34,810 nt of DNA, from assembly GCA_024687745.1 (NCBI GenBank), contig JAILEM010000178.1, forward strand, positions 1-34,810, in the 5' to 3' direction. Both the position numbers and the translations under genes were made by a program. The stretch's first letter is position 1. The number at the start of each line of letters is the position of its first letter. Below the pieces are notes generated by a model, which ran no database searches, was not told the DNA's origin, and worked only from the letters and a program-made list of their open reading frames with translations. Positions 3,169 through 34,686 of the stretch are shown in pieces. This DNA is from Lachnospiraceae bacterium. Its GTDB lineage: Bacteria; Bacillota; Clostridia; Lachnospirales; Lachnospiraceae.

Positions 3169-3414
3169 TCAGTTATTGTAAAGATACTTCACTAAATCCG
3201 GAATATTTACATCTTTGATATAACGCTCAGCTTCTCCTGTATAGGAATAATAATTTTTAAGCTTTTCCCACTCACTCTTACTGAAGGTATGTACTGCACC
3301 TGTTTTATCTGTCATTGTAACACTTCCATCATCATTGATGATATTTCCGTAAGGTGTTACTGTTGCTCCTCCGTTTACCTGATTAAGATCATTGTCATTA
3401 AGACTTGCTCCCAT
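3169..3414 (-). CDS. Small protein with N-terminal double-glycine leader (secreted peptide/RiPP-like precursor)
   Basis: The 81-residue product begins MGASLNDNDLNQVNGG, a compact match to the double-glycine leader pattern (L-S/N-D-x-D-L-x-x-V/I-S/N-G-G) recognised by peptidase-containing ABC exporters. Cleavage after Gly16 would release 65 residues starting ATVTPYGNI: polar, with several aromatic and Asn/Asp residues, no Cys and no membrane segment. Absence of Cys argues against a lanthipeptide or disulfide bacteriocin. The gene has its own strong promoter, AGGAGG spaced 6-7 nt from the ATG, and its own terminator, so it is a separate and probably well-expressed transcript. No exporter, immunity or modification gene is nearby. 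Leader assignment is from sequence; function as bacteriocin, signal or surface peptide is unknown. Confidence 0.8.
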   Translation of the reverse strand: MGASLNDNDLNQVNGGATVTPYGNIINDDGSVTMTDKTGAVHTFSKSEWEKLKNYYSYTGEAERYIKDVNIPDLVKYLYNN

Positions 3415-30697: not shown

Positions 30698-33469
30698 CTA
30701 CTTTGCCTCGTACCAGTCAGTTCCTTCGCTCATCTCAGCCGTAAGGTTAACGGAAAGCTCAGCCGCATTTTCCATCTCCTCCTTAAGGATCGCTGAGACC
30801 TTCTCCTTTTCAGAGATTTCCGTCTCCAAAAGCAGTTCATCATGGACCTGAAGGATGACCTTTGTCTTTAATCCCTCAGCCCTTAACCTGTTCATCACCC
30901 TTATCATGGCGATCTTCATAATATCAGCGGCAGTTCCCTGAATTGGTGCGTTCATTGCAACCCTTTCCCCGAACTGTCTGCGCATGAAATTTGACTCCTT
31001 AAGCTCAGGCACTGGCCTCTTCCTGTTATATAAAGTCTCCGCATACCCCTTTTCCCTGGCATCAGAGACAAGCCTGTCAAGAAACTGCTTGACCTTGGGG
31101 AAGGTAACAAAATAATTATCTATAAACTCTCTTGCTTCCTTTGCTGATATTCCGATATCCTGCGAAAGGCCAAAGGCGGAGATCCCATAAATTATCCCGA
31201 AGTTAACAGCCTTTGCATTCCTTCTCTGGAGGGAGGTAACCTCCTCAAACGGAACATTAAATACTTTCGAAGCCGTTATCCTGTGAATATCCTGCCCCTC
31301 CCTGAAGGCCTCTATCAGAGTTTCATCCTGAGACATATGGGCAAGTATCCTCAACTCTATCTGGGAATAATCGGCATCGAGGAATATGCATCCCTCCCTT
31401 GGAACAAAAGCCTTCCTTATGAGCCTTCCCTGCTCCATCCTGATAGGTATGTTCTGAAGGTTTGGATCTGCGGAGCTTATCCTTCCGGTTGCGGTGATCG
31501 TCTGATGAAAAGTCGAATGTATCCTCTCATCCTCCGAAATATATGGAAGCAATCCGTCCGCATAGGTTGACTTAAGCTTGGAAAGTCCTCTGTAATCAAG
31601 GATCTTTTTGACAAAGGGATGATCGACGGAAAGCTTCTCAAGTACGTCAGCCGCAGTCGAATAGCCGGTCTTGGTCTTTTTCCCGCCGGGAAGCTTCATC
31701 TTTCCAAAGAGGATCTCCCCTAGCTGCTTGGGCGAGTTGATGTTAAATTCCTCTCCCGCCTCCTCTATGATATCCCTTTCAAGCTCATTTATCTGCTCTG
31801 TAAGCTGTATACCGTATTCCCTGAGGACATTGGGCTTAACCTTTATGCCCTCCTTTTCCATGTCAAAAAGGCACACCGTCAACGGCATCTCTATATTCTC
31901 AAAAAGCTCATATTCGTTATTCTTCTCAAGCCTCTCTTTAAGCCTTTCGTAAGAGGCAAAGGATACATAAGCACACTTTGCGGCATAGGCTCTAAAAGCT
32001 TCCTTATCCTTAAGCCACGCATCCTTTATCTTTAATTTGTCAAAAAGCTCCTTATAGCTCTGCATCGAAATATCATTTTCGATCGCAACATCATCGATAT
32101 AATAATCACTCTTAAGCGGATTTAAGAGATAGGATGCAAGCTTTGTATCAAAAATGTATGAGGCGGCCTGTGTTCCGGCATTAAGACCGGCCTTCTCTGA
32201 CCCGTCCCCGGCTCTTCTTTCTGTTCCTTTCTCTGCCCAATCCTCTGCTCTTTTTTCTGCTCCGCTCTCTGCCCAATCCTCAACGATCTCAGGGCAGATA
32301 TGGTAAAGCTCCTTGGCTCCGAAGGTTATTATCTTATGATCCTCTCCGGCTGACTTAACTATCCCCGTTATGATCTCCTTAAGCTTATCCTCGGAAATTC
32401 CCTCCGAATACATAGACATGACCGGCAGAAAATACGCAAGCCCTTCCTCTCTGCAGACAGAAGCCCCGAAAAGCCCGTCCTCAACAAAGCACTGGATAGC
32501 GGTCTTTTTATCCTTAAGACAGTCATTTAATAGCTTATAAGCCTCAGACTCATCCTTTATCTCAACTGTCTTTATCTCAATGTTTTCTTTTTTTACCCCT
32601 GTATTCTCAAAGCGCTGGATCATATTCTTAAAGCCTAAGCGCTTAACAATGTCATAGGCTTCGGAAGTATACATATCCCTGATCCTTTTATCCTCAAAGG
32701 AGGTATCGACAGGTGCATCGATATTGATTGTAGCAAGAGTTTTACTGAGCTCAGCCATATCAAAGTGTTCACTCAGTGTTTCCTTAATGCTCTTCTTGGT
32801 TATATCCCCGATATGCTCCTTAAGAGTCTCGATATTTCCATATTCCTGGATGAGCGCTGTTGCGGTCTTCTCACCTATCTTGGGGACTCCCGGGATATTA
32901 TCGGAAGAATCTCCCATAAGCGCCTTCAGTTCGATTATCTGGTAAGGCTCAAGTCCGTACTTTTCAATAACATCGGCGGTATAATAATCCTCAACCTCCG
33001 TCTTCCCGCCCTTGGTTTTGGGGATACGTATCTTGATCTTATCTGTCGCGATCTGCAGAAGATCCCTGTCTCCCGATACCAGAGAAACCTCGATTCCCGA
33101 GGCCTCGGCTTTTTTGGCAAGAGTACCGAGGATATCATCGGCCTCATAACCCTCTGATTCCACCGTGGTTATCTGCATCGCACGCAGAAGCTCCTTAAGA
33201 ACCGGCACCTGCTCCCTTAACTCATCGGGCATCCCCTTCCTCGTCCCCTTATATTCGGGATAAAGCTTATGCCTGAAGGTTGGCGCCTTAAGATCAAAAG
33301 CAATGGCAAGATAATCCGGGTTCTCCTCATCGAGTATCTTAAACATGATGTTCAAAAACCCATATATGGCATTCGTATGAAATCCGTCAGCATTTGTCAG
33401 CGTCGGGATCCCAAAAAAAGCCCTGTTTATTATGCTGTTTCCGTCTATCAATACAAGCTTTTCACTCAT
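30698..33469 (-). CDS. polA: DNA polymerase I
   Basis: The 923-residue protein combines a 5'-3' nuclease domain (start MSEKLVLIDGNSIINRAFFG, then ALMGDSSDNIPGVPKIGEKTA), a central 3'-5' exonuclease-like domain and a family A polymerase. Polymerase motifs are DPNLQNIPIR, FLDADYSQIELRILAHMSQD (A), RRNAKAVNFGIIYGISAFGL (B) and LQVHDELLLE (C). The exonuclease domain lacks catalytic residues: the DxE strand reads AIQCFVED and the last motif YAAKCAY instead of YAAEDAD, so proofreading is predicted lost. A 12-residue tandem repeat interrupts this domain. The ATG used is five codons after a TTG that the frame allows; GAAAGG lies just upstream. It acts in Okazaki-fragment and repair synthesis. Confidence 0.96.
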   Translation of the reverse strand: MSEKLVLIDGNSIINRAFFGIPTLTNADGFHTNAIYGFLNIMFKILDEENPDYLAIAFDLKAPTFRHKLYPEYKGTRKGMPDELREQVPVLKELLRAMQITTVESEGYEADDILGTLAKKAEASGIEVSLVSGDRDLLQIATDKIKIRIPKTKGGKTEVEDYYTADVIEKYGLEPYQIIELKALMGDSSDNIPGVPKIGEKTATALIQEYGNIETLKEHIGDITKKSIKETLSEHFDMAELSKTLATINIDAPVDTSFEDKRIRDMYTSEAYDIVKRLGFKNMIQRFENTGVKKENIEIKTVEIKDESEAYKLLNDCLKDKKTAIQCFVEDGLFGASVCREEGLAYFLPVMSMYSEGISEDKLKEIITGIVKSAGEDHKIITFGAKELYHICPEIVEDWAESGAEKRAEDWAEKGTERRAGDGSEKAGLNAGTQAASYIFDTKLASYLLNPLKSDYYIDDVAIENDISMQSYKELFDKLKIKDAWLKDKEAFRAYAAKCAYVSFASYERLKERLEKNNEYELFENIEMPLTVCLFDMEKEGIKVKPNVLREYGIQLTEQINELERDIIEEAGEEFNINSPKQLGEILFGKMKLPGGKKTKTGYSTAADVLEKLSVDHPFVKKILDYRGLSKLKSTYADGLLPYISEDERIHSTFHQTITATGRISSADPNLQNIPIRMEQGRLIRKAFVPREGCIFLDADYSQIELRILAHMSQDETLIEAFREGQDIHRITASKVFNVPFEEVTSLQRRNAKAVNFGIIYGISAFGLSQDIGISAKEAREFIDNYFVTFPKVKQFLDRLVSDAREKGYAETLYNRKRPVPELKESNFMRRQFGERVAMNAPIQGTAADIMKIAMIRVMNRLRAEGLKTKVILQVHDELLLETEISEKEKVSAILKEEMENAAELSVNLTAEMSEGTDWYEAK
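32193..32280 (-). repeat. 36-bp in-frame tandem repeat inside polA
   Basis: About 2.4 copies of a 36-bp unit (starting at 32193, 32229 and 32265 on the plus strand) encode 12-residue blocks EDWAESGAEKRA, EDWAEKGTERRA and the diverged GDGSEKAG. They form a charged insertion in the inactive exonuclease-like domain. Confidence 0.85.
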
Positions 33470-33571
33470 CAAAAAACCTTTCAACCCTCACTCATCTGTA
33501 TTTTCTTCCATCCCGTATCAAAGAAACCATGTGAACATGAAAATGAACACAGTCTGTCAGCTGCATTGCCT

Positions 33572-33633
33572 GCCTTACAGGACCACATATTTATCGGTTC
33601 CCTGTTTTATCGACAGCCTTACAGGACCACATA
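33572..33633 (-). repeat. 18-bp direct repeat copying the 3' end of the zinc-finger gene
   Basis: GCCTTACAGGACCACATA occurs at 33572-33589 and again at 33616-33633, a 44-nt period. The second copy contains the last codons and stop of the zinc-finger gene; the first lies in the gap before polA. Confidence 0.9.
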
Positions 33634-33954
33634 AAGATACGCGGCCAGGGAAAGCACCGAAAATCCGGAAAGAATAAGTATCACCCTTCTTGCCAGCTCA
33701 AGTATCTCATGTACATAGCAGCACTTCCTCATAGCCTCGATCTTTTTATTCAGTTCGGAATAAAGATCATATGATCCTTCTTCTTCATCAAGTCGTATTA
33801 TCGCTTCCTTAACAAGATAGCTCGTCTCCATCTCATCATAACAGTAGCTGCAGCTGTCTATATGTCTTAAAAAAAGCTCAAGCTCATCTCCTGTCAGCTT
33901 ATCCTCAAGGAATAGCGGTATGTACCTGTCCATATGCTTACAGTCAATTTTCAT
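33619..33954 (-). CDS. Small zinc-finger (zf-HC2-like) membrane protein, anti-sigma-factor-like
   Basis: The 111-residue protein has an N-terminal HC2-type zinc-binding pattern with Cys5, His7, His31, Cys35 and Cys38 (CKHMDRYIPLFLEDKLTG, then HIDSCSYCYDEM), a charged middle, and one C-terminal membrane helix (about 91-110, VILILSGFSVLSLAAYLYVV). That layout matches anti-sigma factors of the ZAS group that hold ECF sigma factors at the membrane, but there is almost nothing outside the membrane and no sigma gene is next to it. It has its own promoter and AGGAG 10 nt from the ATG. It is the gene before polA, 149 nt away. Confidence 0.75.
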   Translation of the reverse strand: MKIDCKHMDRYIPLFLEDKLTGDELELFLRHIDSCSYCYDEMETSYLVKEAIIRLDEEEGSYDLYSELNKKIEAMRKCCYVHEILELARRVILILSGFSVLSLAAYLYVVL

Positions 33955-34167: not shown

Positions 34168-34200
34168 AAAAAGGGAATATTACCAAAAGTAACATTCCCT
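34168..34200 (-). terminator. Rho-independent terminator of the short double-glycine peptide gene
   Basis: GGGAATGTTAC pairs with GTAATATTCCC (11 positions, one mismatch) around a 5-nt loop on the minus strand, followed by TTTTT. It ends the transcript about 35-70 nt after the stop codon at 34237. Confidence 0.85.
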
Positions 34201-34236
34201 TCATTCTTCCGTTAATTATATCTATGTCCCGCAACT

Positions 34237-34404
34237 TTATTTTCCTATACCCTCCGGGGGAACTCGCCCTATCGTCATTCCACCTGATATACTCTCAAGA
34301 TCATCATCAGATAATTCCATAACATTTTTCCTGTCTTTGTTTAATTTGTCGTCCTTTGAATTGTCATTATCCTTATAAATCTTGTTTTTATTATCCTTTA
34401 GCAT
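34237..34404 (-). CDS. Short peptide precursor with double-glycine leader (55 residues)
   Basis: This small gene has its own promoter, an AAGGAGAGG ribosome site 11 nt from the ATG, and a terminator. The 55 residues comprise a Lys/Asn/Asp-rich stretch (1-28), a clear double-glycine leader motif ELSDDDLESISGG (30-42), and a 13-residue tail MTIGRVPPEGIGK. Leader positions (Leu, Ser, Asp, Leu, Ile, Gly-Gly) fit the pattern recognised by C39-peptidase ABC exporters, and a 13-residue product after GG recalls ComC-type pheromone precursors. An internal ATG at codon 29 could give a 27-residue version with a more usual leader length. No exporter, receptor or modification gene is in view. Secretion and signalling are inferred from the motif alone. 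Confidence 0.75.
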   Translation of the reverse strand: MLKDNKNKIYKDNDNSKDDKLNKDRKNVMELSDDDLESISGGMTIGRVPPEGIGK

Positions 34405-34448
34405 AATGGTCGTATCCTCTCCTTAATATAATCCTTCAAGCAATTGTA

Positions 34449-34479
34449 ATAAGACATAAATATTCAAAAACTGTCTTAT
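34449..34479 (-). promoter_or_regulatory. Inverted repeat in the 5' leader of the short peptide gene
   Basis: ATAAGACA and TGTCTTAT form a perfect 8-bp dyad separated by 15 nt, between the promoter and the ribosome site. It could be an RNA hairpin or a dimeric regulator site. Confidence 0.6.
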
Positions 34480-34510: not shown

Positions 34511-34540
34511 ATTATACGATAAAATGCAGAAAATGGTTAA
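34511..34540 (-). promoter_or_regulatory. Promoter of the short double-glycine peptide gene
   Basis: TTAACC (complement of 34535-34540), 18-nt spacer ending TCG, then perfect TATAAT (complement of 34511-34516). Spacer length, the ACC end of the -35 and TCGTATAATA match the other double-glycine peptide gene's promoter at 3468-3497. Confidence 0.7.
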
Positions 34541-34557
34541 AATCATTTCACTCTGAT

Positions 34558-34599
34558 AAAAAAAATGTCTCAACCCCACTGTTATCAGTGGTTTGAGAC
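34558..34599 (-). terminator. Rho-independent terminator of tRNA-Leu
   Basis: GTCTCAAACCACTG pairs with CAGTGGGGTTGAGAC around loop ATAA on the minus strand, followed by eight Ts after one A. It begins 4 nt after the tRNA 3' end. Confidence 0.92.
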
Positions 34600-34602
34600 C
34601 TC

Positions 34603-34686
34603 TGCCGGCGGCGGGACTTGAACCCGCACTTCCTTGCGGAAAACAGATTTTGAGTCTGCCTCGTCTGCCAATTCCGACACGCCGGC
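34603..34686 (-). tRNA. tRNA-Leu (anticodon CAA)
   Basis: The complement folds as an 84-nt class II tRNA. The acceptor stem is GCCGGCG/CGCCGGC with discriminator A, the anticodon stem GCAGA/TCTGT with loop CTCAAAA (anticodon CAA, reading UUG), a long variable arm (TTCCGCAAGGAA) is present, and the T arm is GCGGG/CCCGC with TTCAAGT. The CCA end is not encoded. It stands alone with its own promoter and terminator. Confidence 0.95.

Follow-up and report, generated by a model that had tools for sequence, protein, structure and literature searches.

A putative orphan double-glycine peptide gene with a 13-residue core in a Lachnospiraceae genome

Introduction

Within the streptococci, ComC/CSP and BlpC with ComAB/BlpAB combine a short precursor, a double-glycine (GG) leader with hydrophobic residues at positions -15, -12, -7 and -4, an exporter with a C39 domain and a short core (PMC7018657). 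The gene described here shares this plan. It lies in a stretch of 34,810 nucleotides from a Lachnospiraceae bacterium (contig JAILEM010000178.1 of assembly GCA_024687745.1), which is called the window in the following. In contrast to ComC/CSP and BlpC, its product has 42 residues before the cleavage site and a charged extension, and no linked kinase, regulator or exporter was recognised. GG peptides that are not adjacent to a two-component system also occur in pneumococci, with VP1, BriC and the rtg peptides as presumable examples. The window peptide is unlinked too, but the VP1 model is absent from its matches. The receptors of such pneumococcal peptides are given as unidentified in a review (PMC7595303).

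The system of LahT and LahA from Lachnospiraceae C6A11 has GG leaders and diverse cores as well (PMC6363468), and among solved structures LahT150 is the closest to the C39 domain of the exporter found in the genome of the window. LahT is described there as a substrate-tolerant protease that removes leaders from a range of different cores and accommodates the leader residues V-4, L-7 and L-12 in hydrophobic pockets. The published rule for substrates of peptidase-containing ABC transporters (PCATs) asks for hydrophobic residues at -4, -7, -12 and -15 of the GG leader (PMC7018657). According to PMC6363468, LahA precursors carry Nif11-type leaders and are encoded in the same lanthipeptide cluster as their exporter, whereas the window peptide is encoded apart from the exporter, on a different contig, has no Nif11 model among its matches and has a core without Cys. 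By description alone, it can be likened to the GG small proteins of Synechococcus, which are small, secreted and required when biofilms develop (PMC4997328).

The precursor frame and its leader

A first-pass annotation of the window had described a 55-codon frame with a double-glycine leader and the 13-residue tail MTIGRVPPEGIGK. This was borne out. The strand, which had been left unstated, is minus; the plus strand of 34237-34404 has stops in the frame read. The leader, VMELSDDDLESISGG, has I at -4, L at -7, L at -12 and V at -15, and the precursor starts with a charged N-terminal extension rich in Lys, Asp and Asn. The core has a calculated [M+H]+ of 1354.75, a pI of 8.5 and a GRAVY of -0.15 and contains one Thr, but neither Cys nor Ser nor aromatic residues. 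Of the two possible starts, M29 has the weaker Shine-Dalgarno (SD) pairing (-6.6 vs -10.2 kcal/mol for M1).

With a strict GG-leader pattern, two ORFs of the window were matched, namely 34404..34237(-) and 3414..3169(-), and 200 simulated windows at either of two Markov orders contained no match. Relaxing the pattern gave three real matches, with 0.8 per window in the simulations. The window peptide scored 22.7 bits with a leader HMM built without any row from its own genome, while 8 bits were beyond all 55,467 ORFs simulated with an order-2 Markov model. Concerning codon use, the overall score of the frame was reached by 2 of the 81 window frames of 45-75 aa and the synonymous-only score of -0.14 by 50 of them, its own frame counted in both cases. 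The latter score is lower than that of all 26 training genes (lowest 0.07), and the synonymous codon use of the frame is not gene-like. The leader and the terminator fold described below are far beyond chance and the SD is strong. The earlier statement that this is unlikely to be a chance frame was upheld by these three features.

Flanking signals and neighbours

The frame had also been credited with a ribosome site, terminator, promoter and leader dyad of its own (Table 1). The ribosome site AAGGAGAGG, which ends 11 nt 5' of the ATG at a rather long spacing, was confirmed. Its pairing energy ranked third of 27 when the peptide gene was compared with 26 long window genes, each taken at its first start codon, which is perhaps not the true one. 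A presumed 16S 3' end was used for this calculation. The terminator was likewise supported by its fold, with a stem that begins 35 nt after the stop codon, although a consensus scan listed no terminator-like site in the region; the scan missed the hairpin at the tRNA gene, too.

The promoter match is present, but it is no better than chance, as five promoter-like sites were found in the region compared with 4.1 ± 1.6 expected from shuffles. Of the leader dyad, the perfect 8-bp inverted repeat stands, yet it cannot be told from chance either, and a structured 5' leader is unsupported. The 5' RNA folded like its shuffles (z -0.5), and the dyad was rejected as an RNA structure on these grounds. 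Its role as a shared operator was unsupported as well: only 3 of 220 loci match, and all three hold the same site. It is a possible operator.

Table 1. Positions of the peptide gene, its flanking signals and neighbours in the window, and of the exporter on contig C49
Feature	Position	Strand	Remarks
Double-glycine peptide precursor ORF MLKDNKNKIYKDNDNSKDDKLNKDRKNVMELSDDDLESISGGMTIGRVPPEGIGK	34404..34237	minus	55 codons, ATG at 34404, stop at 34237
Codons of 42-residue leader	34279..34404	minus	charged N-terminal extension and GG export signal
Codons of 13-residue core MTIGRVPPEGIGK	34240..34278	minus	predicted cleavage after GG
Shine-Dalgarno-like AAGGAGAGGA	34415..34424	minus	-10.2 kcal/mol with 16S 3' end
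Intrinsic terminator, 13-bp stem then T run	34171..34201	minus	-21 kcal/mol, z -6.3
Promoter-like TTAACC-18-TATAAT	34511..34540	minus	10/12 matches
8-bp perfect dyad ATAAGACA/TGTCTTAT	34449..34479	minus	presumed 5' untranslated region
Hairpin and T run after tRNA-Leu	34567..34599	minus	z -4.0; presumed terminator
tRNA-Leu(CAA), upstream neighbour	34603..34686	minus	
Zinc-finger (zf-HC2) protein, downstream neighbour	33619..33954	minus	PF13490 27.7 bits vs cut-off 22.2
polA-like gene	33484..30698	minus	named by reading its sequence
NHLM-type peptidase ABC exporter	C49:13084-15297		PF03412 (C39) hit; NHLM_micro_ABC1 911 bits vs cut-off 853

The hairpin behind the tRNA gene presumably keeps transcription of that gene from running into the peptide gene, and the zf-HC2 gene was judged to lie outside the unit of the peptide gene. 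A reading of the window's long ORFs by eye showed nothing recognisable as a kinase, response regulator or peptide exporter, and no receptor or immunity gene was recognised nearby.

Family models and orthologues

The likeness to ComC-type pheromone precursors proposed in the first-pass annotation held for the shape but did not extend further. The Pfam model ComC (PF03047) gave 12 bits (cut-off 20.4, E 0.19), the leader has 42 residues and a linked kinase, regulator or exporter was not recognised. At E ≤ 0.01, PF14501, the model of ComD-type kinases, had eight matching places in the genome and left the window contig without a hit. The best match (76.7 bits) is on the unlinked contig C120 (7.4 kb), on which the GG pattern found no GG-leader ORF. 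TIGR01847, a general model of GG leaders, gave 15.0 bits on the single protein (cut-off 15.7) and 16 bits, above that cut-off, in the genome search with the neighbours in frame. Five NCBIfam models were listed for the window protein, all for bacteriocins or lantibiotics and all under cut-off; neither TIGR03793 (NHLP) nor TIGR03798 (Nif11) was listed at E ≤ 10 with the HMMER filters on. The peptide belongs with the orphan GG peptides that are common around it. It was placed outside ComC and outside the array leaders described below (A2) because of its 12 bits for ComC, its poor A2 score and the lack of an A2 hit in its genome.

An orthologue was not recognised. In the genus, 9 of the 36 other genomes gave weak matches, 13 altogether (E 0.0018-0.1); these cover mainly the leader, five contain internal stops, and none was judged orthologous. 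The C-terminal 26 residues had weak matches, again mainly to the leader, in 10 other genomes of a 397-genome family sample (E 0.004-0.42; threshold E ≤ 0.5), and these were not judged orthologous either. Phages and plasmids yielded no match at E ≤ 0.1 and viral contigs none by pattern search followed by tblastn. The only hit among genome contigs, a frame in a cyanobacterial MAG (L017; 42% over residues 1-50), was rejected as an orthologue and taken as GG-peptide similarity. It is a GG-leader frame as well (ELEMESISGG, then MTPYLPPN...), and the short words by which it was retrieved take in the leader. The cleavage site and core start of this frame (L017:5001-5126), SISGG-MTPYLPPN, resemble SISGG-MTIGRVPPE of the window peptide.

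Matches to the downstream zf-HC2 gene are present in 35 of 37 genomes. Of the 30 loci fetched, 29 came from other genomes, and none of these carries a GG leader within ~1.5 kb upstream of the gene; a regex match at L019 is an unrelated frame on the opposite strand. The peptide is either lineage-specific or has relatives that diverged beyond recognition, which is to be expected because array cores are variable. The literature covered, mostly papers open without subscription and in part as excerpts, holds no description of the window peptide or of short-core arrays.

The candidate exporter

In the genome, the only match to PF03412 (C39) is on contig C49; the window contig has none, and 32 of 37 genomes of the genus gave hits. 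The gene after this exporter is similar to NHLM_micro_ABC2 but under cut-off (683 vs 709), and a 159-aa frame before it matches only the first 47 positions of an HlyD-like model. The best solved relative of the C39 domain is LahT150 (6mpz, 2e-61), with 91 of 142 aligned residues identical (64%); a LahT-like domain agrees with the family given for the window, Lachnospiraceae. Q21, C27, H101 and D117 of LahT, whose catalytic roles are taken from PMC6363468, are kept.

The leader of the window peptide ends in GG and has I, L, L and V at the four positions of the PCAT substrate rule, and cleavage of the precursor by the C49 exporter is a prediction reasoned from these features. A second exporter could be missing, since the assembly (3.15 Mb), in which the window is G000:C230, consists of 256 contigs and is 95% complete.

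Double-glycine leaders in the genome and genus

Further leaders of the GG type lie in the same genome at C230:3414..3169, C49:7667, C204, C155:2567 and C155:440, and a leader at C49:5079..4888 ends in AAG. TIGR01847, which is independent of our leader model A1, lists five of the seven genome places including the window gene; the A1 scores of these leaders are partly by construction, because some A1 rows come from the genome itself. A1 has five more matches at E ≤ 10, all weak: one on C67 in a 235-aa frame, one on C166 and three within long frames. At E ≤ 0.02, A1 matched 105 places in 35 of 37 genomes of the genus and 18 of 200 genomes of a family sample; two of the latter belong to the genus, which leaves 16 of 198 elsewhere, in a comparison that favours the genus from which alone A1 was built. 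Most of the 105 places are remote from exporters: nine have a C39 hit no more than 10 kb away on their contig, a lower bound since the contigs are short.

The median core of 111 distinct GG ORFs of the genus (at least 12 leader bits; 13 loci, L017 and L096-L107, and frames above 160 aa left out) is 64 residues long. Cores of up to 20 residues were found in 12 of them, and that of the window peptide is among the six shortest. The motif x-x-h-G-x-[IVL]-P occurs in two of the 111 cores, those of the window peptide and L005 (0.02 expected; 0 of 5000 shuffles reach two), and at the same positions in L096 from another genus. [IVL]P[PEN] was seen within the first 15 core residues of 10 of the 111 (2.5 expected), four of which form one related group. 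Both motifs are leads only, because they were defined after looking at these peptides.

The second GG gene of the window, 3169-3414 (-), encodes 81 aa with a core of the type 'TDKTG...W..L...YTG' that is recurrent in the genus. This peptide and its relative L063 reached the cut-off of no NCBIfam or Pfam model, save the GG-leader model for L063. A family with the N-terminus 'LFDYQRF' and an AAG/GG leader has matches in 6 of 299 family genomes, our genome included, in which its gene adjoins a gene for a sigma-70-like factor. Its members L086:4888-5079 (-) and L246:4413-4604 have the short cores AFIASPNEEKPK and KAQSKVPPKKTQ, while the cores of L233 and L235 are longer. In several loci of the genus, among them L006, L085, L133 and L161, the cores of GG-leader ORFs contain CxxC...CxxC pairs and are zinc-ribbon-like, which is odd cargo for a peptide exporter.

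Short-core arrays in related genera

Tandem arrays of genes with a similar 42-residue Nif11-like leader (A2) are present on G116:C22 (L236), G115:C18 (L237) and G342:C16 (L279), with hypervariable cores, many of 6-20 residues. A2 matched 9 of 397 family genomes at 1e-4, and the genome of the window had no hit. Of 38 distinct A2-leader peptides in the loci fetched, 24 have cores of 7-20 residues. Among those with cores up to 30 residues (n = 28), the leaders are 65% identical on average, while the cores on average resemble each other just as much as shuffled ones do and two of 378 core pairs are clearly alike (shuffle: 0). The DNA of the core APRPTLD is identical in G115 and G342, together with 27 of 28 nt downstream, and looks like the result of a recent exchange. 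The second pair is probably FSDSGS.../ISDSGS..., both from G116:C22.

The cores GATSRRSRSKGR (G116, L236:12191-12271) and AATARRSRSKGR (G342, L280:7290-7123(-)) have 10 of 12 residues in common, while 9 of 12 codons differ, seven of them synonymously (pS 0.59 vs pN 0.19); [GA]AT[AS]RRSRSKGR is a near-common core pattern between genera. In neutral simulations, 10 of 12 residues were kept in 14 of 20,000 runs, which overstates the case because the pair was chosen for looking alike. The codon differences suggest that at least one short array core is translated and selected. This bears less on the window peptide, since the pair was picked for its cores and comes from another leader type. All four array peptides that were scanned stayed below the NCBIfam and Pfam cut-offs.

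The window peptide was considered as an A2 member due to its 42-residue leader length and PPEG[IL], which it has in common with L013. The score did not support this. On a test model of 14 genus leaders (A2 residues 1-28 like MKLxGxLKxQVExAxxKEEAKxxIxxAG), its residues 2-28 scored -17.6, a value reached by 5.6% of shuffles, and register +2 scored better; with M1 included, 0.85% of shuffles reached the score.

Discussion

We consider it likely that the gene encodes an orphan precursor that is cut and exported by the C49 exporter as an unmodified 13-mer, probably a signal. The exporter would bind the leader via its hydrophobic residues at -4, -7, -12 and -15 and cut after Gly-Gly, and the unmodified MTIGRVPPEGIGK would be exported. 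Once outside the cell, it would most likely serve as a short signal to a receptor unlinked to the gene. The ORF, its leader, ribosome site and terminator fold as well as the exporter with its catalytic residues can be read from the DNA. From these, we infer transcription, translation, cleavage, export and the absence of modification. Further GG-leader ORFs in the genome and the recurrence of short cores in related genera are in favour of this reading. Against it stand the lack of a recognised orthologue, the synonymous codon use, the chance-level promoter, the consensus scan without a terminator and the fact that no receptor or immunity gene was recognised nearby. Modification is disfavoured because the core lacks Cys and Ser and no maturase was recognised nearby. 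Given export, the chances of a signalling role are roughly even, guessed from the size and from the fact that no immunity gene was recognised. A signal is favoured over a bacteriocin because of the small size and because neither a partner nor an immunity gene was recognised.

The gene might instead be a remnant or a newly born GG gene that has its leader, but a core that is lost or not yet selected and that leaves the cell, if at all, as a by-product. This would be in agreement with the lack of a recognised orthologue in the genus, family sample, phages, plasmids and viral contigs, with the synonymous codon use and with the charged, Lys/Asp/Asn-rich extension. It is unlikely, however, as a strong SD and the terminator fold are retained, the PCAT rule is followed in full and short cores recur in related genera. 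A longer core would have no room in the 35 nt between stop codon and stem, unless it was deleted.

GG leaders and C39 exporters serve bacteriocins and signals alike, according to PMC7018657 and PMC7595303, and the five models listed for the window protein are all of bacteriocin or lantibiotic type, albeit under cut-off. The exported 13-mer or a trimmed form of it could have antimicrobial activity or be one of the partners in a two-peptide bacteriocin. This is rather improbable for a core of 13 residues with a slightly negative GRAVY and without Cys or aromatic residues; moreover, the unit has no second GG ORF, and no immunity-like gene was recognised by eye between the two hairpins. A RiPP precursor with a core modified before export is very improbable: the NHLM, LahT-like exporter type is known from RiPP clusters (PMC6363468), but the core has neither Cys nor Ser and a single Thr, and no modification enzyme was recognised by eye among the long ORFs of the window and of C49:1-20000. 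A chance open frame without a gene, with which the synonymous codon use, the chance-level promoter and the consensus scan without a terminator agree, is hardly credible given a leader score that no simulated ORF matched next to a strong SD and a terminator fold.

The orphan precursor with its predicted 13-mer is ordinary in kind; the point of interest is the orphan short-core repertoire. Tentatively, and with considerable doubt, bacteria of the family (probably Lachnospiraceae) may possess unmodified orphan GG peptides as a genome-wide repertoire, encoded at scattered places or in tandem arrays, with hypervariable cores that measure 6-20 residues and a few promiscuous LahT-like exporters to serve them. 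If so, they would form an unannotated peptide 'vocabulary' between bacteria, with the window 13-mer as a lineage-specific word. The window peptide and five short-core relatives all scored below the Pfam and NCBIfam cut-offs, and such repertoires are probably undercounted because of these low scores and the short genes. For the window gene, mass, exporter and cleavage site are all predicted, which makes it a test case. For cores that are common or nearly so between genera, such as APRPTLD and the Arg-rich pattern given above, the idea of oligopeptide signals is testable with synthetic peptides. In G342 (L279, L280), the neighbours of short-core GG genes were taken by eye for type IV pilus or pseudopilin-like genes.
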